Assembly (NCBI GenBank): GCA_016196755.1
Contig: JACPXC010000045.1
Span: 140,893 to 204,892 of the forward strand
DNA from: Elusimicrobiota bacterium
Lineage (GTDB): Bacteria; Elusimicrobiota; Elusimicrobia; UBA1565
DNA length: 64,000 bases
Direction of reading: 5' to 3'
Below are positions 13,341-48,568 of this stretch, one piece after another. Made by a program: the position numbers and the translations under genes. The first letter of the stretch is position 1. Every line of letters starts with the position of its first letter. The notes under the pieces are model-generated. The model ran no database searches. It saw only the letters and a program-made list of their open reading frames with translations, and was not told where the DNA came from.

Positions 13341-13967
13341 ATGTTTCCGTTACGCGACAATATCCGCGCGCGGTCGGTCCCGTTCTTCACCATAGGCCTC
13401 ATCCTGGCCAACGCGGCGGTCTTCTGGCACGAACTGAGCCTGGGGCCGCGCTTGGAGCCTTTCCTCAAAGCCCACGGCCTCATCCCGGCCCGCCCCTCGG
13501 CCGACGACCTGTTCACCTCGATGTTCCTCCACGGCGGCTGGACCCACGTCATCGGCAATCTCTGGACGCTATGGATATTCGGCGGAAACGTCGAGGACCG
13601 CATGGGGCATCTCCGCTTCCTGGCCTTCTATCTGCTCTGCGGGCTGGCGGCCGGGGCCGTGCAGGTCTTCGCCGCCCCCGCCTCGACGATCCCCGTCATC
13701 GGGGCGTCGGGCGCCATCGCCGGGGTGCTGGGCGCCTACATCCTGTTCTTCCCCACCGCGCGCGTGACGACGGTGGTGCCGGTCTTCATCTTCCTTCATT
13801 ACGCCGAGATCCCGGCGTTCATGTACCTGGGGGTCTGGTTCTTCACCCAGGTCTACTCGGGGACGCTCTCGCTGGGGGCCGACTTCGGCGGCGTGGCCTG
13901 GTGGGCGCACGTCGGGGGATTCCTCGCCGGGATGGTGTTCGGCTTCCGGCACCGCAAACGGCGCTAG
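13341..13967 (+). CDS. Rhomboid-family intramembrane serine protease
   Basis: 208 aa with six hydrophobic segments. The catalytic serine is in GASGAIAG (helix 4) and the catalytic His in WWAHVGGFLAG (helix 6); helix 2 carries HxxxN (GGWTHVIGNLW). All residues for proteolysis are present. It cleaves membrane-spanning substrates within the bilayer; the substrate is unknown. An upstream in-frame codon at 13293 lies within the divergent promoter region and was not used. The stop overlaps the convergent receiver gene by 4 bp. Confidence 0.92.
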   Translation: MFPLRDNIRARSVPFFTIGLILANAAVFWHELSLGPRLEPFLKAHGLIPARPSADDLFTSMFLHGGWTHVIGNLWTLWIFGGNVEDRMGHLRFLAFYLLCGLAAGAVQVFAAPASTIPVIGASGAIAGVLGAYILFFPTARVTTVVPVFIFLHYAEIPAFMYLGVWFFTQVYSGTLSLGADFGGVAWWAHVGGFLAGMVFGFRHRKRR

Positions 13968-14341
13968 GCGGGCGTCAGCGAGCGCATGAGCTCGCCGAGG
14001 CGGCGGGCGTCCGGCGGCTTGATGAGGTAGGAACTCGCCCCCAGCTCGACGGCCGTGGCATGCGTACTCTCCTGATGCGACGCCGAGAGCACCACGATGG
14101 CGACCCCGTCGAGCGCCCGTTGCCGGCGGGCCCAGACCAGGACCTCGAAGCCGCTCAAGTCGGGCAGGTTCAGGTCGAGGAACACCAGGGCCGGCGCGGG
14201 GGACCGCGCGAGGTAGTCCAGGGCCTCCTGGCCGCCCTTCGCCCAGTGCACGGGGTTCGGGATGCCCGCGCTGGTCAGGGTGTACCGGAACAGGCTGGCG
14301 TGCTCGGGGTCGTCCTCGACGAGCAGGATGGTCCCATCCAT
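13964..14341 (-). CDS. Single-domain response regulator (receiver)
   Basis: 125 aa consisting of one receiver domain. The acidic pair is in LLVEDD, the phosphorylated Asp in VFLDLNLPDLSG, the Thr/Ser position in VVLSAS, and the Lys in YLIKPP. There is no output domain, so it probably acts by protein contact, like the Rcp1/CheY class paired with hybrid kinases. The ATG at 14341 is preferred to one at 14401 because the upstream 20 codons are not domain-like and a TATCCT hexamer ends 6 bases before 14341. Confidence 0.85.
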   Translation of the reverse strand: MDGTILLVEDDPEHASLFRYTLTSAGIPNPVHWAKGGQEALDYLARSPAPALVFLDLNLPDLSGFEVLVWARRQRALDGVAIVVLSASHQESTHATAVELGASSYLIKPPDARRLGELMRSLTPA

Positions 14342-14510
14342 GCCATAAGGATAGGCGGGAAGCCGCGGCCGTGGTATTGTGGCCGTGTAGTCTAATGTCA
14401 AGAATCTAGGACTTTTGGCCCTTAATCTTTAAAGGCCGGCTCTGGCAGCATCTCCTCCTTTGTGGCTACGACATGGTCGCGTTCTAGCCGACACATCCTG
14501 CCTCTCCCCA

Positions 14511-14539
14511 TTGATGTCGAATTTTAATCATGCTATGAT
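14511..14539 (+). promoter_or_regulatory. Promoter of the siderophore/PepSY operon
   Basis: TTGATG at 14511-14516, 17-bp spacer and TATGAT at 14534-14539. Transcription should start near 14546, which is inside the 21-bp operator palindrome. It drives the run of overlapping genes from 14599 to 22891. Confidence 0.75.
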
Positions 14540-14544
14540 TTTTC

Positions 14545-14565
14545 TATTGAGACTTAGTCTCAATA
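14545..14565. promoter_or_regulatory. 21-bp palindromic operator (Fur/DtxR-like) at the transcription start
   Basis: A perfect 21-bp palindrome centred on 14555, with the core TTGAGAC-TTA-GTCTCAA. The TGAGA...TCTCA arms and 7-1-7 spacing resemble Fur boxes of the TGAGAATnATTCTCA type, with C replacing A in each arm. Its position over the transcription start of a siderophore synthetase operon strongly suggests repression by an iron-sensing regulator. Which regulator binds cannot be told from sequence alone. Confidence 0.7.
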
Positions 14566-14598
14566 AGAAATCGACGCATCGAGGCCGGAGAGGACGCG

Positions 14599-14823
14599 AT
14601 GAGGATTGAGTTGGCGGAGCAGGGCGAAGGAGCGGTCTGGCTGTGCGGGGAATGTGACGACGTCCATATGCGCTGGCAGAACTGGGTGCTAACGCTCACC
14701 CGGGAACAGTTCTCCGGCCTTTCCCGCATGGCCTCTGCGGCCGAACTGAAGCTCGCGGGCGCGCCGGGGCCCGATTCGAGCAAAACGGCCTGCGGCCATC
14801 GGGGGCGGACTTGGCTCCAATAG
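14599..14823 (+). CDS. Small Cys-containing protein, first gene of siderophore operon
   Basis: 74 aa with a good GGAGAGG ribosome site. The N-terminal half reads as a short beta-rich unit with CGEC at residues 16-19, then VHMRWQNWVLTLTREQF, a pattern of small conserved hypothetical proteins that begin with a CxxC pair. A third Cys lies in TACGHR near the end. It overlaps the start of the synthetase gene. It could bind a metal or act as an accessory factor; function is not known. Confidence 0.6.
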   Translation: MRIELAEQGEGAVWLCGECDDVHMRWQNWVLTLTREQFSGLSRMASAAELKLAGAPGPDSSKTACGHRGRTWLQ

Positions 14824-16583
14824 AAGAGAGCCGCGGCGAAGTCATGGGGCGCGTCTTCAACGCGCTCTGGCGCGAGAGCTTCGCCAGCAGCCGCCGCCGG
14901 GCGCGCGTCTGCGGCGAGGGCGGCGGGGACTTCGCGGTCGTGACCCTGGCCGGCGGGGTCGAGGTCATGGGACGGCTCGATGACGCCCGCTCGCTCGAGA
15001 CCCTGTCCACCTCCCCTCCTTATTATGTCCGCTTCCGGCAATCCGGGAGCATCGAGGAGCTCACCGACGCCGACCAGTTGGCGGCCCTCCTGCCGGCGGG
15101 CCCGGATTCGGTCTCTCGTCTCTGCGAGGAAGTCGGCCAGAGCGTCCGCAATATGGCGATCTTCCTTGAGCGCAGCGACGAGCGGCTCGGGGAGCTGCCG
15201 GGCCGCCCGGGTCAGGGCGCCCTGGCCCGGGCGTTCGGCCGCGCGCGCTTCCGCGGCTGCCGGCCCGAGGAGTACATCGAGAGCTGGGTCCTGCGCGGGC
15301 ATGCCCTGCACCCCGGCGCGAAGACCCGCCTGGGATTTTCCGCCGCCGACGTCGAGCGCTACTCGCCGGAGTTGGGCCGCCAGGTCGGCCTGCGCTTCAT
15401 GGCCGTGCGCAAGACCCATCTGGTCGACAGCCGTTCCGTCTCTGCCGACTCCTCCTACCCCGCGGCCTGGGCCGCTGCCTTCGAGGACTCCTTCCGGCGG
15501 CGTTCCCTCCCCTCATCGGACTTCGAGGTATTGCCGGTGCACCCGTGGCAGTGGAGCAACGTGCTCAAGGGGATGTTCAAGGCCGAGCTCGAGAGGGGCG
15601 TCCTCGTCCCGCTGGACGCCGTCGTCGAGGCCCAGCCGCTGGCGTCGCTGCGGACGCTGGCCCCCCTGGGCGACCTCCACGCCCCCCAGCTCAAACTGCC
15701 GCTGGCGATCCAGGCGACAAGCGTCCCCCGGACCATCACCCCCCCCACCGTCGAGAACAGCCCGCGGCTGGCCGACCTGCTGGGGCGGATCCTGGACCGG
15801 ACCCCGGACCTCGCCCGCCTGGTCTCGCTCTCCCCGGAGACGCGCGGCGCGCACTTCCAGGAGCCCGGGGCGCCTGCCGACGCCGAGAAGTCCCGCCACC
15901 TCACCATGCTCCTGCGCCGCCGTCCCGAGCGCCGTCCCGGCACGTGGCTGGTGCCGAACGTCGTCCTGGCCGAGCTGTCCCCGCTGGATGGGCGCCCGTT
16001 CGTGAGCGAGCTCGTCGAGCGGGCCGGCGGGGATGCCCTGTCCTATTTCCGTGACTATGTCCTGCTCTCATCGCGGGTCACGCTGGGCTTGCTGGCCCGC
16101 TTCGGCCTGGGGATCGAGGCGCACGCGCAGAACACCCTGACCTATCACCGCCGGGGGACGCCGGCCGACTGGGTGCTCCGCGACTTCGGGGGCATGCGCA
16201 TCGACCGGCGACGCCTGAGGGAGGCCGGCCTCGACGTCGAACTCCACCCCGGCACCTTGATGGAGACGCGCGACGACCTGGAGCTGGTCTCGAGCTTTCA
16301 CCATTGCCTGTTGCAGGGGAACCTCGCCCCGCTGGCCGGCGCGCTGGCGGGCGCCTTCGGGGTCCCCGAGGCGGAGCTCTGGCGCGCCGGCCGCGAGGCC
16401 GCGCGGGCGGCCTGGGAGGAGCAGCGCGCGTTTATCGGGGGTGAGCGCGGCGACGAGCTCGGAGGCCTTCTGTTCCGTCCCCGCGTCGTGGTCAAGGCGT
16501 TGACGCGCATGCGCCTGTCCGACGAGCCCTGGCGCGACGAGTTCTGCGAGGTCGAGAACCCGCTGGCGGACACGGTCTCTTGA
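14811..16583 (+). CDS. IucA/IucC-family NIS siderophore synthetase
   Basis: 590 aa, typical length. It joins citrate or another carboxylate to an amine or hydroxylamine using ATP. The family signatures are all present: GHALHPGAKTRLGF (ATP site), VLPVHPWQWSNVL, ATSVPRTITPP, HAQNTLTYHR and RDFGGMRID. The C-terminal region has the FhuF-like helical part. A TTG at 14811 overlaps the previous gene; an ATG at 14844 is an alternative. Only one synthetase is encoded, and no hydroxylase, decarboxylase or acyltransferase for a side arm lies nearby, so the substrates must come from elsewhere or the product is simple. Confidence 0.92.
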   Translation: MAPIEESRGEVMGRVFNALWRESFASSRRRARVCGEGGGDFAVVTLAGGVEVMGRLDDARSLETLSTSPPYYVRFRQSGSIEELTDADQLAALLPAGPDSVSRLCEEVGQSVRNMAIFLERSDERLGELPGRPGQGALARAFGRARFRGCRPEEYIESWVLRGHALHPGAKTRLGFSAADVERYSPELGRQVGLRFMAVRKTHLVDSRSVSADSSYPAAWAAAFEDSFRRRSLPSSDFEVLPVHPWQWSNVLKGMFKAELERGVLVPLDAVVEAQPLASLRTLAPLGDLHAPQLKLPLAIQATSVPRTITPPTVENSPRLADLLGRILDRTPDLARLVSLSPETRGAHFQEPGAPADAEKSRHLTMLLRRRPERRPGTWLVPNVVLAELSPLDGRPFVSELVERAGGDALSYFRDYVLLSSRVTLGLLARFGLGIEAHAQNTLTYHRRGTPADWVLRDFGGMRIDRRRLREAGLDVELHPGTLMETRDDLELVSSFHHCLLQGNLAPLAGALAGAFGVPEAELWRAGREAARAAWEEQRAFIGGERGDELGGLLFRPRVVVKALTRMRLSDEPWRDEFCEVENPLADTVS

Positions 16584-17710
16584 GCTTGCTCGCCCTCTGC
16601 CTCTGCCAGCTGGCCGCCATCTGCGCCTACGAGATGGGCACTCCGTTTATCCCCGCGCTGCTCGCTTCTATGGGCGTCTCGGAGACGGGCGCCTTGATGC
16701 GCTGGACCGGCTGGGCGGACGCCGCCGCGCTCGGCCTCGGCCTGTTCTCGACGCCCTTCTGGGCGCGGCTCGGGGACGCGCGCGGCCGGAAGCTCATGCT
16801 CCTGCGCGCGCACCTGGGGCTGGGCGCGGCGCTCTTCGCCGTCTCTCTGGCGCGCACCCCGCTCGAGGTCGTGCTGGCGCGGGCCCTGCAGGGGGCATTG
16901 GCCGGAGTCACCGCCGCCACGCTGGCGGCCGTGTCCGAGGAGGAGCGGGCCTCTTCCCGGATGGGGTGGGTGCAGTCGTCGTGCCTGGCCGGCGCCTTCA
17001 TCGGCCCTTTCCTCGGCGCCCTGGTCCTGCGCTTCGCCGCCCCCGCGGCGGTCTTTCGCGCCGGCGCCGTCCTCTGCCTGCTTTCTCTGCTCGCCACGGC
17101 GCTGTTCGTCGGAGAGCCGGCTCGGAAGGCGGCCGAGGTCGCGGAACCTCTCCCCCCAGCCCGCGGCTTCGGGGCGGCGGGCGCGCTGGCGGCCTGGATC
17201 TTCGCCTGGCGGGCGCTGGAGGACCCGGTACTCCCGGTCTACGCGCGTCAACTGGCCGGCGAGAGCTCCTGGGCGCTGTGGATGGCCGTCATCCTCGGGG
17301 CCTCGCGCCTGACGGCGATGCTCTCGGCCCCGGCCTGGGGGCGCTGGGCGGACCGCCTGGGTCCGGAGCGCGTCCTGCGCGCCGCGGTCTGCGGGACGGC
17401 CGCGCTGACCTTAGCCCAGCTCCTGGCCCGCGGGCCGCTGGAGCTGGCCTTGGTCCGGGCCGCGCTCGGGCTCTTCGCCGGGGCCATCGCCACCTGCGTC
17501 TACGCCGAGGCCGTCGGACGCGTCCCGGGCCGCCGTCGCGGCGAGGCCGTGGCGTTGGCGGTCACGGGCGGCCGCCTCGGCGATTGCGTGGGCAGCGCGG
17601 GCGGCGGCGTCCTCGCCGCGGCGGCCGGCGTGCCCGGCCTGTTCGCGGCGATGGGCGCGGGACTCCTGAGCTCGCTCCTCCTCATCCGGCGTCCCCCCGA
17701 GACGGCATGA
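16580..17710 (+). CDS. MFS exporter, probable siderophore efflux
   Basis: 376 aa with about 12 membrane helices, TTG start overlapping the synthetase stop. The loop-2 motif of major facilitator carriers is seen (FWARLGDARGRKLML) and repeated in weakened form (WGRWADRLGPERVL). Its coupling to an NIS synthetase matches known siderophore operons in which an MFS pump exports the product. Direction and substrate are inferred from context. Confidence 0.85.
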   Translation: MSLLALCLCQLAAICAYEMGTPFIPALLASMGVSETGALMRWTGWADAAALGLGLFSTPFWARLGDARGRKLMLLRAHLGLGAALFAVSLARTPLEVVLARALQGALAGVTAATLAAVSEEERASSRMGWVQSSCLAGAFIGPFLGALVLRFAAPAAVFRAGAVLCLLSLLATALFVGEPARKAAEVAEPLPPARGFGAAGALAAWIFAWRALEDPVLPVYARQLAGESSWALWMAVILGASRLTAMLSAPAWGRWADRLGPERVLRAAVCGTAALTLAQLLARGPLELALVRAALGLFAGAIATCVYAEAVGRVPGRRRGEAVALAVTGGRLGDCVGSAGGGVLAAAAGVPGLFAAMGAGLLSSLLLIRRPPETA

Positions 17711-20202
17711 CGCGCAAGCTGCTCTTCCGTTGGCACGTGGGGCTGGGCAAGTTCGGCGGCGCGCTGATCCTGATTTGGGCCCTCAGCGGCACCGTCATGA
17801 CGGTCCAGCCGATGCTCCTGCGCGCCCTCGACCCCGGCTTCCCGTCCCTGCGCGCCGAGCCCGCGGACCTGGGCGCCTTCTCGGTCCCCCCGGCGCGCCT
17901 GGGATCCAAGACGGCCTCCGCGTCCCTTCGGACCTTCCGCGGACGGAGCTGGTACGAGCTGACCTTGGCGGACGGCGCCGTCGAGGCTTACGACTCCCGC
18001 ACCGGCGCGCCGGTGGCCGCGCTGCTCAGCGAGGCCGAGGTCGTCGTGGGCTTGGCCGAGCGCCTGGCCGCCTCCCGATGGACGACCGGCGCCGCCGTCC
18101 TCATGGACCGGCACGACGACCAATACCGGAAGGGACGCCTCCCGGTCTACAAGGTCCGCATGAGCGGGCCCGGCGCGGTGGTGCTCTACATCTCGGCGCG
18201 CGACGGGGGCGTCGAGTCGGTGACGACGCGCTGGTCGCGGCTCATCCGCTGGCTGGGCCTCGGCGTCCACACATGGAACTTCGCCGCCGTCATGCGCCGC
18301 CACGACGATGAGCGTGGCTTGGCCCTGGCGGCCTTGGTCTCGGTGCCGCTGGCGGCGCTGGCTGCCATCGCCTACGCCTTGCTGGCCGCGCGCTCGCGCG
18401 GGAAGAAGGGGGCCGCCGCGGTCCTGGCGGGGCTGCTGGCTTTCCATGGCTCGGCCCCCCCGGCCCAGGCGGCCTTCATCGCCGTCAGGGCGGCCGGCCG
18501 CGCGGCGGCCGCGGCGCCGCCGGTCGCCCTGCCGCCCGTCGGCGTCGCCGCGGCTCCGCCTCTTGCTTCTCCCGCGGGACCTGCCGGCCTCCGGCTGCCG
18601 TCGCCGAGCCTGCCCGCTCTCTCGGTCCAGCCCGCGCTCGCCCTCGCCGCGGCCCGGGCCATTCCCGCCGCGGCCGAACCGGCGCGGGCCCTGCCGCGTT
18701 TGCCGGCGGAGGCCTCTCGCGCGGAGCCGGCCGGCGTTTTTGTCTCCGTGGAGCGTCTTTCTCCGGCGCGCGGTCCGGAGGGCCGGGGCCCCCGGGAAGG
18801 CTTCGCGGCGGCGTCGCGGATGTTCTTCGACGGGGCTCGTCGCCCGTCGGGCTCGACCGTCTCGCCCGTCGTCCCGGAACCCGGCCGGTCCGAGTCCCAG
18901 CCGCTCGGGCGGCCGCCCGTGGCGGCGGAGCCCCCCGCCGCCGCCGTGCCTCCGCCTGCCCCGGCGGGCGTCCCCGACGGCAAGGGGATCTGGGGGCTTT
19001 ACATCACCCACGCCGTCCACATAGCCAGCCTCGCCCTCGTGTGGCGGATCGCCTGGCCGCTGTTCGTGCTCGAGGTCGCCGGCAAGGGCGGGCTGGGCCT
19101 GCTCGGCACCGTCGACCAGTTCTCGGACCTGGCCCTCGGCGTGGCCGCGGGCGTCGTCATCGACCGCCTGCTGCCGTCGCGCTCGATGGCGGCGGCCGCG
19201 CTCGTGCGCGCCGGGGTCGGCGCGGCCCTGGCGGCGGCCGCCGCGTGGTGGTCCCCGGGGCTGCCCTTCCTGCTCGGCCTCTCGGCGGTCCATGCCTTCG
19301 CGATGACGGTCATCTATCTCGGCCAGGCGGCGGTGAGCCCCGCCGCGGCCGGCGGGGACGCCGAGCGCCTGCAGCGCCTCAACATAGTCTTGAAGCTCAT
19401 CACCGTCGCCGTCGCCATCCCGGGGTCCTATGCCGGCGGCTGGCTGGTGGCGCACATCGGCACTCCGGCCGCCTTCGCGGCCTATGCCCTGCTCAACGCG
19501 CTGGTCCTGGCCCCGCTCTACGCCAAGCTGCTGCCGAGGGACCAGGCTCCCGAGCGCGCCGAGGCCGCCGGCCCGCCGCCGGCCGGCCTCGGGGAGGTCC
19601 TGCGCTTCATCCTCGACGGCAGGGTCCTGCTCGGCCTCTTCGCCGCCACGGCCGCGGCCATGACCTTCGCGGAACCCTTCCGCAACACCGTCCTGCCGAT
19701 CGTCGCCAAGGAGCTCCTGCGCGGCGGTCCGGTCCTGCTCGGGCACCTGATGACGGCGCTCTACGTCGGGCAGTGCCTGGGCGTCCTGGCCCTGCTCCGG
19801 TGGTCGAAAGCCATTGCCCCGCGCTGGTGGATCGCGCTGGCGGGGCTCGGGATGGCAGCGTCCTGGCTGCTGGTCCTGGTCCCGGCCTATCCGCCGATGA
19901 TCTACGCCGCGGTCTTCCTCATGAGCCTGCTCACCCAGCCCGCCGCGACGATGATCAAGACCCTGCTCCAAAAAGAGACGGCGGAGCGGCGGCCCGAGCT
20001 CCTGGGGCGCGTCCTCGGCGTCCACCTGATGTTCTACGCGCTGGTGGCCGGCGGCGAGACCGCGCTCCTGGCATGGGGATTCTCCGCCTTCACCGGAGGG
20101 TTCTTGGCGCCTATCGTGCCGTTGGCCGTCGCGTACACCGGGCTGGCCGCCGTCGTCCTCGTCCTGGTCCTGACCGTCCTCAAGAAAGGAGACCTACGAT
20201 GA
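17707..20202 (+). CDS. PepSY-TM protein fused to an MFS carrier through an embedded signal peptide and FDGA linker
   Basis: 831 aa. Residues 1-230 form one PepSY-TM unit: helix with WHVGLGKFGG, soluble domain with QYRKGRLPVYKVRMSGPG, and closing GVHTWNF before a second helix. Residues ~231-256 look exactly like a bacterial signal peptide (RGKKGAAAVLAGLLAF, then APPAQA). Residues ~257-430 are Ala/Pro-rich with RMFFDGARR near 373. From ~430 a complete MFS carrier with 10-12 helices follows. No stop or frameshift separates the parts. PepSY-TM proteins accompany ferric-siderophore uptake and reduction; the MFS half may import or re-export the chelate. It overlaps both neighbours. Confidence 0.8.
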   Translation: MTRKLLFRWHVGLGKFGGALILIWALSGTVMTVQPMLLRALDPGFPSLRAEPADLGAFSVPPARLGSKTASASLRTFRGRSWYELTLADGAVEAYDSRTGAPVAALLSEAEVVVGLAERLAASRWTTGAAVLMDRHDDQYRKGRLPVYKVRMSGPGAVVLYISARDGGVESVTTRWSRLIRWLGLGVHTWNFAAVMRRHDDERGLALAALVSVPLAALAAIAYALLAARSRGKKGAAAVLAGLLAFHGSAPPAQAAFIAVRAAGRAAAAAPPVALPPVGVAAAPPLASPAGPAGLRLPSPSLPALSVQPALALAAARAIPAAAEPARALPRLPAEASRAEPAGVFVSVERLSPARGPEGRGPREGFAAASRMFFDGARRPSGSTVSPVVPEPGRSESQPLGRPPVAAEPPAAAVPPPAPAGVPDGKGIWGLYITHAVHIASLALVWRIAWPLFVLEVAGKGGLGLLGTVDQFSDLALGVAAGVVIDRLLPSRSMAAAALVRAGVGAALAAAAAWWSPGLPFLLGLSAVHAFAMTVIYLGQAAVSPAAAGGDAERLQRLNIVLKLITVAVAIPGSYAGGWLVAHIGTPAAFAAYALLNALVLAPLYAKLLPRDQAPERAEAAGPPPAGLGEVLRFILDGRVLLGLFAATAAAMTFAEPFRNTVLPIVAKELLRGGPVLLGHLMTALYVGQCLGVLALLRWSKAIAPRWWIALAGLGMAASWLLVLVPAYPPMIYAAVFLMSLLTQPAATMIKTLLQKETAERRPELLGRVLGVHLMFYALVAGGETALLAWGFSAFTGGFLAPIVPLAVAYTGLAAVVLVLVLTVLKKGDLR

Positions 20203-22268
20203 CCGTTCTGAAGAACGCCGTCCGCCGCTCCCTGGCCGCGCTTTTGTGCGCCCTCTTCGCGCTGGCTGACTGCCCGCGGGCGTTCGCGCAGGCGCGCGCG
20301 GCCGTCCGGGCCGGCGCGTCCGCGCCGTCGGCCCTGCCGGCGCTGGCGCCGGCCGTCGGCGCGCGAACCGGGGCGGCCATGCTCCGCTATGCGGGCCTGC
20401 CCGGACCCTCCCTCGTCGTTCCCTCGTCGCCGATCCCGGCCGCCGCCGCGCCCCAAGCCGCCATCTCCGCCTTCACCGCGGCGGCCGCGGCTCTTCCTCC
20501 CGCGGCCGCCGCGGTCCGGGCGGCGCGGTCCTTGGCCGTGCCAAGGGAGCGCGCGGCGGTCCCCGTCGCGGACAGGGAGCCGCGCGCCGAGAAGTCCGCG
20601 GACGCCTCCCTGCGCGCGGCGGCCGAGGGCTCGAAGGGACCCTCCGCTTCCGCGGCCCTCCAGGGCGCCCTCTTCGACGGCGCTCGTCCGCGCCGGGACA
20701 CGGACACGGTCCTGGTATCCGTGGCGCCAAGCGTTCCCGCGAGGAGCCTGCTCGGGCCGGCGGCCGCGGCGGCCGGGCTCGGCGCCGCCGGGCTGACGGC
20801 GGCCTGGGGGCTGAGCCATCTCTCGGCATCCGAGCTGCACGTTGGGTTCGGTTTGACCTTCGGCTGGATGGCGATGTGGCAGGCCGTCACGGGGACCTTG
20901 AGCCTCCTGCGCCCGGTCTTGCTCGAGAGCCTGGACCCCGCGCTGCCGGAGCAGGTCATGGCGGATTTCGAGTCCACCGCGTTCAGCGCGTCGCCCGCCG
21001 CGGCCGCGCGCGCCGCACTCGAGGCGTCCGGACCGGGGGCCAAGATCCGGACGATGACCCTCAGGACGGCGCCCACCTCGGGGCGCAAGCGCTGGTACGA
21101 GTTCGAGCTCGAGGACGGCCGGGTCGTCAATGTCCATGGGCGCACGGGGAAGGTCATCCGTTCGCCCCGCAGCCGGGCCTTCATCCTCGGCCAGGCCGAA
21201 CGCTGGCTGGGGGGCAGCGCCTGGAAGGTCGAGGGCCGCCCCGAGCTTCTGACTGAGGACGGCGAGTATTACCGCAAGGGCGAGACCCCGCATTACCGGG
21301 TCCGGCTCTCCGGCCCCGGGGACCACGAGGCCTTCTTCTCGGCGCGAGATGGACGCCTGCTCGCCGTCCACTCCCGGCTCTCCCGCGTCCTGCGCTGGGT
21401 CGGGATGGGGCCGCATGCCTGGGGGATCAAGCTCCTGCGCCCGTACGACGCCTTGAAGCGCCTGGTCGCGCCGCTCCTGATGGGGGCTCCGCTCGTCATC
21501 ATCGCGGCCACGGCGCTCTGGATGCGCGTCAGCGGCGGCTTCGCGCTCGACCTGCCGTCCTTGTCCTGGTCGGCCTACGAGTGGCACCGCTTCTTCGGCT
21601 CCTACGCGCTCTTCGCGCTGCTCACGGCCGCCACGACCGGGCCGCTGTCGATGCTCATTCCGCTGGTCAACAAGCATGTGACCCCGGCCCTGCCGCCCCT
21701 TCCGGCGGCCGACCCGGCCGGCTTCGTCCTGTCGCCCGCCGAGGCGGCCGAGGCGCTGGGGCCCGGCGCCGCGGTCAAGAGGATGGAGGCACGCTGGGGC
21801 GGCGGCGAGGCCTGGTACGCCTTCGTCCTGGCCGACGGCTCCGAGGCCGCGGTATCGGCGGCCGACGGAAAGCCTCTCCCTCCGGTGCGCGACGGCGCCT
21901 GGGTCTCGGCCGCCGCGGCGCGCTGGCTGGAGGGCTCCCCCTGGTCCCCGAAGGGCGCGGCGGTACCGGTGACGGAGTTCGACGACCTGTTCCGCAAGGG
22001 CGAGTTGCCCGCCTACCGCCTCGAGCTCGACGGTCCGGGAGGGTTCGTCGTGTACCTCTCGGCGCGCGACGGACGCCTCATCCCGACGTATGGGGAGTTC
22101 TCGCGCCTCGAGCGCTTCCTCGAGCGGCGGATCTACGGCGTACACGCCCTCGACTTCGGGTTCTTCAGCCGGCATGAGACCCTGCGCCGGGCGCTCCTCA
22201 TCGCCTTCGTGACGGCTCCGGTGTTCCTGACCGTCCTCGCCGCCTTCGCGGCGCGGTGGGGGTTCTGA
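20199..22268 (+). CDS. Exported double PepSY-TM protein with FDGA leader
   Basis: 689 aa with an AAAGGAG ribosome site. Signal peptide 1-30 (ALLCALFALADCPRAFA), Ala/Pro-rich leader to ~155, then LQGALFDGARP. Two PepSY-TM units follow. Unit 1 has a helix at ELHVGFGLTFGW, YYRKGETPHYRVRLSGPG and GMGPHAWG; unit 2 has YEWHRFFGSYALF, LFRKGELPAYRLELDGPG and IYGVHALDFG. Both share SARDGRL with the upstream fusion protein, so three homologous units lie in tandem. The paired His at the helices could ligate heme or metal, as proposed for PiuB/FpvG-like ferrisiderophore reductases. Role in reductive iron release is inferred. Confidence 0.8.
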   Translation: MTVLKNAVRRSLAALLCALFALADCPRAFAQARAAVRAGASAPSALPALAPAVGARTGAAMLRYAGLPGPSLVVPSSPIPAAAAPQAAISAFTAAAAALPPAAAAVRAARSLAVPRERAAVPVADREPRAEKSADASLRAAAEGSKGPSASAALQGALFDGARPRRDTDTVLVSVAPSVPARSLLGPAAAAAGLGAAGLTAAWGLSHLSASELHVGFGLTFGWMAMWQAVTGTLSLLRPVLLESLDPALPEQVMADFESTAFSASPAAAARAALEASGPGAKIRTMTLRTAPTSGRKRWYEFELEDGRVVNVHGRTGKVIRSPRSRAFILGQAERWLGGSAWKVEGRPELLTEDGEYYRKGETPHYRVRLSGPGDHEAFFSARDGRLLAVHSRLSRVLRWVGMGPHAWGIKLLRPYDALKRLVAPLLMGAPLVIIAATALWMRVSGGFALDLPSLSWSAYEWHRFFGSYALFALLTAATTGPLSMLIPLVNKHVTPALPPLPAADPAGFVLSPAEAAEALGPGAAVKRMEARWGGGEAWYAFVLADGSEAAVSAADGKPLPPVRDGAWVSAAAARWLEGSPWSPKGAAVPVTEFDDLFRKGELPAYRLELDGPGGFVVYLSARDGRLIPTYGEFSRLERFLERRIYGVHALDFGFFSRHETLRRALLIAFVTAPVFLTVLAAFAARWGF

Positions 22269-22891
22269 TGAAGGCCCTCCTCTTCCTGTCCGCGTCGCTG
22301 GCGCAGGCCCAGATGCGGGCGTCCGTTGTGAGGCCGGCGCCCGCGCCGGCGGCTCCGGTCGTCGCGGCGCCGCTCTCCATCGTCTCGGTGCCCGCATCGG
22401 TGGCCGCGCCGCGCCTGACGCTCCCGGTCCTGACGGTGCCTATCCCGCTTTCGGCGGCGGGCTCCGCGGTGGCCCCTGAAGTCCGCGCAAGCGCCGAAGA
22501 ATCCGCGTTAGCCAAGCTTGACGCGGCGGGCTTCGACCGAGAGTTGGCCGACCGCGGCCTGATCCTTTGGCGGCTGCTTCGCGCGAGCAAGCGCAGCGGG
22601 GAGCGGGCCTATCTCACCATCGGTCTGCCGCCCGACGGCCGTCCTTACGACCGCAAGGAGCCGGACCCCAGGCGCGAGAAAGAGCTCAAGACGCGCCTCG
22701 AGGCCTCGGAGAAAGACATCGCCGCGCTGGCGGCGCGCATCCTCGGCCTGCCCGAGGAGAATGTATCCGTCCGAGGCGACCTGGCGGAGTCCTGCTGCGG
22801 GGCGGGCTGCCAGGGCTGCCTGCGCGCCGACCCGGAGCAGTCCGAGAAGTGGACGGACTCCGCCCCGTTTCGCCGGGGCAAGCGGCGCTAG
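22268..22891 (+). CDS. Exported Cys-cluster protein, last gene of siderophore operon
   Basis: 207 aa, start overlapping the previous stop (TGATG). Signal peptide of ~15 residues (ALLFLSASLAQAQ), Pro/Val/Ala-rich leader to ~70, then a helical region. Near the C-terminus a cluster of four cysteines, CCGAGCQGC (about 175-183), resembles the CCxxGCxxC motif of oxidoreductase-like small domains and could hold a metal or Fe-S centre. No enzyme domain is recognised. Its place at the end of an iron operon suggests electron transfer or metal binding outside the inner membrane. Confidence 0.65.
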   Translation: MKALLFLSASLAQAQMRASVVRPAPAPAAPVVAAPLSIVSVPASVAAPRLTLPVLTVPIPLSAAGSAVAPEVRASAEESALAKLDAAGFDRELADRGLILWRLLRASKRSGERAYLTIGLPPDGRPYDRKEPDPRREKELKTRLEASEKDIAALAARILGLPEENVSVRGDLAESCCGAGCQGCLRADPEQSEKWTDSAPFRRGKRR

Positions 22892-22912: not shown

Positions 22913-22973
22913 AGCCGACGTTGCCCCATCCAGTCCTTAATCATTTAAGGCCGGTCAAGTAACATCCCTTCCT

Positions 22974-47217: not shown

Positions 47218-47368
47218 TATAGTGAATCGGGCCTCGGGTGAGAGTCTTACGGTCGGGAGCCGAGGATCCTTACAGGAACTAGGGCCCAACCCGGCGTAGG
47301 CCCAATGCCGCGACGCGGAGGGTCCTCCGGCGCAAGTCGCCGAGGAGCCATGCGGCTAACCTGTGCTC

Positions 47369-48564
47369 ATGCGCCGCGCGCTCTGCATAGTGGTCACGGC
47401 CGCCGCCACGGCTTCCGCCCAGCGGGTCGTCACGGCTCCCGTCGCTCCGGTTTCCGTCCTCCCCCTCCCGGGCCTGGCCATGCCCGTGGCGCCGACGCTG
47501 ACCTCTCCCGTGGCGCCGGCGGGCGTCTTGCCGGCCCTGCCGACCCTCGCTCCGGCGCTGGCGCTCCCCGCCGCGCTGTCGCTCGCTCAGCCCGCGGCCC
47601 GCGCTTTGGCGTTGCCGACGCCCGCCGTGCCCATGGCCGGCCCGGCCGGGGTCCCGAACGCCGTCGCCGAGCCCCTCTCGCCCGAGAGCCGTCACGCTCC
47701 GACGGCCAAGGCGGTGGCGGCGGCGGCGGCCCAGGCGGCGCCCGCGCTCGACCTCTCCGGCGGCGCGGCCGAACTGACGGCCCGGACCGCGTCGTTCTTC
47801 GACGGCTCGCAGGTCTTCCCGTCCCTGGTCGAGGCCGACGGCGTGGCCGGGTTCGTCCGCGAGCTCCAGGAGCCCTCTCGCCAGCTCCAGGCCATGGGAG
47901 TCAAGGGAACGGTCACCATCTACGGCTCGGCGCGCATCCCCTCGCGCGAGACCGCCCAGGCCCAGCTCTCCGCCGCGGTCGCGCTTCACGGCCGCCGCCC
48001 CAAGGACACGGTCGGCCGCGAGGCGGTCGCCGCGGGGCATGCCGCGCTGCGCGCTTCGCACTGGTATGAGGAAGCGCGCCGATTCGGACGGCTGGTCGCC
48101 AAGAACAGCGGCGGCGAGCTGGCCGTCGTCACCGGCGGCGGGCCGGGGATCATGGAAGGCGCCAACCGCGGCGCGTTCGAGGCCGGCGGCAAGAGCGTCG
48201 GCTACAACATCACTCTGCCGTTCGAGCAGAGCGCCAACCCGTGGATCACCCCGGGCCTGGGCTTCGAGTTCGAGTCCTTCGCCACGCGAAAGATGAACCT
48301 GCGCCACGGGGCGGTCGGGCTCGCCTATTTTCCCGGGGGCTACGGGACCTTCGACGAGCTCTTCGAGGTGCTGACGCTGATGCAGACCGGGAAGATGCCG
48401 CGCGTGCCGATCGTCCTCGTCGGGCAGAAGTCGTACTGGAAGAAGATCATCCAGTTCCGCGAGTTCGCCCACCAGGGGCTGATCTCGAAGGCCGACCTCG
48501 ACCTGTTCGTGTTCGCGGAGAACGCCGAGCAGGCTTGGGCGGCGATCGAAGCGGGCGCGAAGCG

Positions 48565-48568
<4 letters not shown>
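47369..48568 (+). CDS. Exported LOG-family protein with Ala/Pro leader and FDGS motif
   Basis: 399 aa. Signal peptide (ALCIVVTAAATASAQ), then about 120 residues of Ala/Pro/Val-rich leader, TARTASFFDGSQV at ~138-149, and a LOG/lysine-decarboxylase-like domain to the end. Catalytic motifs are GGGPGIMEGANRGA and FPGGYGTFDELFEV, the latter with the Glu and Arg-region of cytokinin/nucleotide 5'-monophosphate phosphoribohydrolases. Family members are normally cytoplasmic and 180-250 aa, so export is unusual. A TAACCT hexamer ends 6 bases before ATG. Its substrate outside the inner membrane is unknown. Confidence 0.82.

Follow-up and report, generated by a model that had tools for sequence, protein, structure and literature searches.

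The window, a stretch of 64,000 nucleotides (70% G+C) on contig C10 of a 4.59-Mb Elusimicrobiota genome here labelled G000, carries six genes (g1 to g6) that probably constitute a Fur-controlled operon for a carboxylate siderophore, in which PepSY units of the heme type are built onto a carrier of the major facilitator superfamily (MFS). g2 encodes a predicted synthetase of the nonribosomal-peptide-synthetase-independent siderophore (NIS) family, and the operon is predicted to make a carboxylate siderophore. The operator motif upstream of g1 is common to the operon and other iron genes of the genome, as in a Fur regulon, and the gene set is also found in two further Elusimicrobiota: genome G189, of the same order and another family, and the metagenome-assembled Elusimicrobia genome that holds locus L006 (JACRDP010000010.1). 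What is new here is the PepSY half-units, their fusion to an MFS protein, and g6.

The operon and its operator

An open reading frame (ORF) check of the window places g1 to g6 in the same direction between 14599 and 22891, with overlaps onto the preceding gene of 13, 4, 4, 4 and 1 (or 13) nucleotides for g2 to g6, respectively; the six genes likely form one operon read as a single transcript (Table 1). Support for the TTG start of g2 comes from homologue P0002, whose first methionine aligns there. Between 13900 and 23100 two promoter-like matches were observed against 0.2 expected from shuffles, the second being on the minus strand and using the palindrome sequence. An initial annotation, made from the letters of the window alone, had described one promoter, a 21-bp palindrome and six genes of which five overlap their predecessor; all of these were found in place by the ORF, promoter and shuffle checks.

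A chance origin of the palindrome at 14545-14565 was considered and rejected, both by the shuffle test (no match in 100 shuffles, up to three mismatches allowed) and by the recurrence of the motif at iron genes. Its 7-1-7 layout, TGAGACT-T-AGTCTCA, is that of Fur-family sites. When the general form TTGANACNNNGTNTCAA was searched with at most one mismatch in six genomes of the window's family, 25 sites were obtained versus 2 for the reversed pattern. Five of these are in G000, at the operon, an FTR1 permease, fur, an ApbE-like ORF and a TonB/receptor pair: the permease has a cytochrome c domain and is followed, behind the box, by a BFD ferredoxin; the fur-adjacent site lies at the 5' end of the ApbE-like ORF (NCBIfam 51.9 bits, cut-off 498); and the box on contig C41 is upstream of a TonB gene and then a receptor ORF of 544 amino acids. 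Because the same motif adjoins the FTR1, fur, ApbE-like and TonB-receptor genes in G000, the palindrome is very probably a Fur box, and the iron-type operator proposed in the initial annotation is borne out by comparative genomics. Fur-family genes are present in seven of the seven genomes tested.

Among the relatives, FeoB stands behind a box in G223, one small ORF separates the box from FeoB in G088, and in G272 the site on C485 precedes an ORF resembling the G000 FTR1 protein. Two of the 25 sites, both on C18 of G223, adjoin a Phenol_MetA_deg-type protein. No tie to iron genes was seen at the sites on C18, C77 and C136 of G223, C578 of G272, C103 (30360) and C123 of G088, or at two sites each in G227 and G282, neighbourhoods that are mostly unread. 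The strict pattern TTGARAYTNARTYTCAA, again with at most one mismatch, occurs once in G000 and twice in the genome of L006, at the operon only. G189 has two such sites at the operon and one 1.5 kb downstream with a weaker copy after it, located between an ORF like the ferritin-like gene of L006 (see below) and a candidate porin-like ORF; G126 has one, upstream of an ORF read as ApbE-like, and none was found in G223, G272, G088 or G112. The strict search hit the operon site alone in G000, and the looser form proper to the window's own family was recognized later from the fur loci, where near-copies of the box occur on both sides of fur, its promoter included, in G000, G223, G272 and G088. The operator weight matrix was trained on eight sites, for which its scores are circular; the fur-locus matches lie outside this training set.

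Table 1. Features of the operon and its borders (window positions)
Feature	Position	Strand	Remarks
Direct repeat, left copy, 20 bp	14420..14439	+	18/20 identical to right copy
Sigma-70-type promoter	14511..14539	+	TTGATG-17-TATGAT, TG before -10 hexamer
Palindrome, 21 bp	14545..14565	.	at expected transcription start; predicted Fur box
g1, CxxC protein, 74 amino acids	14599..14823	+	kept in L004 and L006
g2, predicted NIS siderophore synthetase (IucA/IucC and FhuF domains), own clade	14811..16583	+	TTG start
g3, MdtG-like and FslB-like MFS protein (FslB being the rhizoferrin exporter); putative exporter of the siderophore	16580..17710	+	
g4, PepSY half-unit (His10, His188), Ala/Pro leader, 12-helix MFS (TIGR00900-like)	17707..20202	+	
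g5, leader and two PepSY units, conserved membrane histidines 214, 406, 463, 649	20199..22268	+	
g6, leader, alpha/beta domain, CCGAGCQGC tail	22268..22891	+	ATG 22268 or GTG 22256
Direct repeat, right copy, 20 bp, CCTTAATCATTTAAGGCCGG	22935..22954	+	upstream of amylase gene

PepSY units and their fusion to a carrier

In each PepSY unit a membrane stretch with WH or LH and (S/T)G comes first, then the PepSY domain, then another membrane stretch headed by GVHTW, GPHAW or GVHAL. The C-terminal part of g4 is an MFS_1 domain, and its N-terminal unit, which has no Pfam match of its own, is assigned to PepSY because it is homologous to both halves of g5 (35 and 34% identity, E 1e-28 and 2e-27). The four membrane histidines of g5 are invariant in seven of seven sequences and g4 has the same pair. 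In FoxB-type reductases such membrane histidines hold two hemes (PMC13038864, PMC10866019), and by analogy of pattern the four g5 histidines are predicted to be able to do the same; the initial annotation had proposed looking for heme or metal ligands in the PepSY units, and a conserved pairing of membrane histidines is seen there. Both G000 and G189 have a ferrochelatase.

That g4 and g5 act together is best supported by proteins in which an MFS domain is joined to PepSY units in several layouts. In G189 a single ORF of 1477 amino acids after g3 reads PepSY - leader - MFS - g6 domain - PepSY - PepSY; i.e. it corresponds to genes 4, 6 and 5 joined, without the leaders of g6 and g5. In a set of 5.8 billion proteins, of which the 7993 candidates sharing most words with g5 were scored, six relatives of g5 besides itself were found, including P0088 (MFS, then two PepSY units) and P0093 (PepSY-MFS-PepSY). 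The MFS domain is preceded by a PepSY unit in each of the three operons and also in P0093, and it is followed by PepSY units in P0086, P0088 and P0093, which makes three fusions with three layouts. The G189 ORF and the two further proteins with PepSY units C-terminal to the same MFS argue for one reductase-transporter machine.

The synthetase, the predicted exporter and related loci

The assignment of g2 as an NIS synthetase, already made in the initial annotation, is supported by domain scores well over cut-off (Pfam IucA_IucC 176.6 bits, cut-off 25; FhuF 67.2 bits, cut-off 25.2) and by 40 columns, invariant across 20 NIS rows, that g2 keeps. In a tree g2 falls, with support 100/100, within a clade of 18 rows, of which 15 come from the homologue list (40-69% identity) and the other three are the window, L004 and L006, one member being named Candidatus Eremiobacterota; the FslA-like proteobacterial rows, including the named rhizoferrin synthetase P0023, are outside it. 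The product of g2 is not predictable, because all product-specific cut-offs are far from reached. g3 has an MFS_1 domain and resembles MdtG and FslB (92.9 and 89.4 bits, in either case far below the cut-off).

Fifteen NIS loci were compared, 13 of them outside Elusimicrobiota and the unclassified "bacterium CPR1". A g3-like MFS gene follows the synthetase in 6 of the 13 (by tblastn), and a Pfam-confirmed PepSY_TM gene is present in two, Methylophaga L008 (229.8 bits) and Riemerella columbina L019 (194.6 bits); the other 11 were covered by tblastn and by an insensitive regular expression that also failed to pick up the known units in L006 and L007, and several of the contigs end nearby. Since L008 and L019 have it, PepSY beside NIS is an existing pattern, and the view that this combination is unusual, taken in the initial annotation, does not hold.

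Distribution and probable insertion of the operon

An NIS synthetase together with a g5-type tandem PepSY protein occurs in the same 2 of 294 genomes of the phylum, and the synthetase in 3 of 56 genomes of the window's order; an initial contig scan with g5 had confirmed no relative. The initial annotation had suggested looking for the same gene order in related genomes: the gene set is kept, the order only in part. In G189 g1, g2 and g3 follow in order (36, 43 and 43% identity), preceded by the same 17-mer and by a second box immediately upstream of that, and the remaining genes are fused as described above. In L006, which also has two boxes upstream, all genes are separate and run g1, g2, g3, g4, a DUF6607 gene, g6, g5, so that g6 precedes g5, which it follows in the window. 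L007, of "bacterium CPR1", shows the same succession of NIS, MFS and PepSY stretch, the last interrupted by stops before the contig end.

Some neighbours of these loci may be mentioned. The DUF6607 gene of L006 (14328-15221, 277.3 bits) lies between g4 and g6, and a literature search for this family found it named in none of the results. A small cysteine-rich ORF at 8456-8656 of L006, zinc-ribbon-like by eye, stands between the two boxes and g1, and its 36-residue tail gave no Pfam match. Directly downstream of the L006 operon is a ferritin-like gene (17936-18391, Pfam Ferritin 59.4 bits), and a ferritin look-alike with two Fur-type boxes is located 1.5 kb downstream of the operon in G189 (L047, 962-1492).

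The operon block is probably an insertion, because the genes that flank it in the window, a rhomboid gene on the left and an amylase gene on the right, are adjacent in two relatives: G223 of the same genus (L062, 9214-9834 and 10025-11920) and G088 of the same family and another genus (L063, 9220-9864 and 9961-11946). G282, the third relative examined, shows the amylase only. In the window a response-regulator-like ORF and the operon lie between the two flanking genes. The 20-bp direct repeat of Table 1 brackets the operon alone, any other site in the window matching at 14 of 20 positions or fewer, and a domain search found no integrase or transposase among the six operon proteins. Both a gain in the lineage of the window and a loss in both relatives are possible; the patchy presence in the phylum sample and in the order favours gain. 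The response-regulator-like ORF (13964-14401) is next to the operon, and G223 and G088 have no space for such an ORF.

Proposed mechanism

When iron is plentiful, Fur would bind the palindrome at the transcription start, as the regulon suggests. The g2 enzyme would join citrate to an amine from general metabolism, as expected from its NIS family, and g3, by its likeness to FslB, would export the product. The ferric siderophore would return via a TonB receptor whose gene lies outside the operon. The PepSY units of g4 and g5 may then pass electrons through membrane heme, by analogy with FoxB and from the conserved histidines, such that iron is reduced and freed in the periplasm; the "reductive opening" of the siderophore in the initial annotation is better worded as reduction of the bound iron. 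Fe(II) could enter through permeases of the same regulon, e.g. FTR1, the MFS half of g4 would move the emptied siderophore, and the cysteine tail of g6 might, as a guess, bind iron or carry an Fe-S cluster.

More tentatively, FoxB-like heme half-reductases joined covalently or tightly around an MFS carrier may couple the stripping of iron directly to the movement of emptied siderophore or freed iron across the inner membrane; this would be a reductase-recycling transporter for a siderophore made by an uncharted NIS clade. Such a fusion would tie together two iron-uptake steps that are usually carried out by separate proteins. How periplasmic reduction of ferric siderophores is coupled to transport or recycling is an open question for most bacteria, and natural PepSY-MFS fusions point to a particular carrier and open the coupling to experiment. 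For Elusimicrobiota the operon provides a specific siderophore candidate, together with a likely Fur box and its regulon, and it adds a small NIS clade; the titles and abstract beginnings of the literature searched contained no siderophore operon in this phylum.

Points against the reading and alternative explanations

A number of observations weigh against the operon as interpreted here. The NIS scores of g2 are far under every product-specific cut-off, the operon has no amine-making gene, and agmatine deiminase was found in none of three genomes. g5 is just under the PepSY_TM cut-off (28.0 against 28.8 bits), whereas its counterparts are above it (34.9 and 33.2 bits). FoxB was not reached from the PepSY units by sequence, profile or fold search, an absence from the fold listing that does not exclude the relationship, whereas the Methylophaga PepSY_TM protein does retrieve FoxB (7abw). 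A search for ferrochelatase in G294, whose genome is probably only about 72% complete, found none. The 544-residue receptor ORF ends 102 bases short of the contig end, and the barrel model covers 297 of 436 positions. Near-copies of the box occur at 4 of 8 fur loci, all in the window's family, and at 0 of 4 in the other family. Finally, by helix count the C-terminal PepSY units of the fusions would face the cytoplasm, provided that all hydrophobic stretches span the membrane; either one stretch is non-spanning or the leaders alter the topology.

Another explanation would be that the operon makes rhizoferrin itself; i.e. that it is a system of the lbtAB/fslAB type that happens to carry PepSY genes. 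FslA (NF041038) is indeed the top NCBIfam model for g2 and FslB the second for g3, an NIS gene followed by a g3-like MFS gene recurs in the outside loci counted above, and SpeA is present in G000 (and in G294). However, the scores are 169.5 bits against a cut-off of 1000 for g2 and 89.4 against 600 for g3, the g2 clade is separate from the rhizoferrin-type rows, the operon has no decarboxylase like FslC, of which L008 has one (337 bits), and the lack of agmatine deiminase in the three genomes counts here as well, so that rhizoferrin as the product is unlikely. Still less probable is that the 1477-residue fusion in G189 arose from faulty assembly and that g4, g5 and g6 are not one machine. G189 is a draft of about 60 contigs, the fusion is without just the low-complexity leaders of g6 and g5, and L006, at 82-84% DNA identity there, has separate genes; but the reading frame is open across both joins, P0088 and P0093, which lie on other contigs, have the same MFS linked to PepSY units in other layouts, and the PepSY-MFS fusion itself occurs in all three operons. 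CrpH, another PepSY_TM protein, has a link to heme-copper oxidases (PMC13038864), and by that example the PepSY units could serve another metal or respiration, with a non-iron metallophore as the product. This appears very improbable, as the operator motif accompanies fur, FTR1, BFD, FeoB and TonB genes. A Fur-controlled carboxylate-siderophore operon with PepSY units on an MFS carrier remains the reading preferred here.

g1, g6, leaders and receptors

The best family match of g1 is DUF6686, at 15.2 bits under the cut-off of 23.9. For g6 a database search returned two proteins, one being the window's own, and counterparts are found in L006 and within the G189 fusion; a search by fold yielded nothing at E 0.001 and listed the MamM C-terminal domain and tautomerase-like proteins only as weak rows. 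The CCGxGC motif of g6 may resemble motifs of OXLD1 and DUF5522.

Three proteins, not the two of the initial annotation, carry Ala/Pro-rich leaders as read by eye (g4, where it is internal, g5 and g6). These leaders are not special to the set, since other proteins of G000 and of a relative have them; they look like a habit of the lineage. A signal-like start with a long Ala/Pro-rich leader is seen outside the operon at 47363-48568 of the window, at 407-1225 of L087 and at 4030-5274 of L084, and an F(F)DG motif is common to the leader regions of the 47363-48568 protein, g4 and g5.

The lack of a TonB receptor noted in the initial annotation is true of the operon and not of the genome, for G000 has three receptor matches, one of them behind TonB and a Fur-type box; G189 has thirteen. 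G112 and G126, of the same genus as G189, have zero.

Comparison with known systems

Like g5, reductases of the FoxB, FpvG and FhuB type have two PepSY domains, each between histidine-bearing membrane stretches, in an iron-regulated setting (PMC13038864, PMC10866019). Compared with FoxB, the (S/T)G motif is found, by eye, on two of the four g5 membrane stretches, and there is here an extra half-unit fused to an MFS protein. Rhizoferrin and legiobactin are made by the fslABC and lbtABC operons. The operon resembles these in having an NIS synthetase followed by an FslB-like MFS, and differs in the synthetase clade, in the lack of FslC and in the addition of PepSY units, g1 and g6. The loci of Methylophaga (L008) and Riemerella columbina (L019) share with the window the combination of NIS, MFS and PepSY_TM. 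They differ from it, however, in that the locus includes a TonB receptor and one free-standing PepSY_TM gene, with neither an MFS fusion nor g6; in addition L008 has an FslC-like decarboxylase and L019 an ATP-grasp gene.

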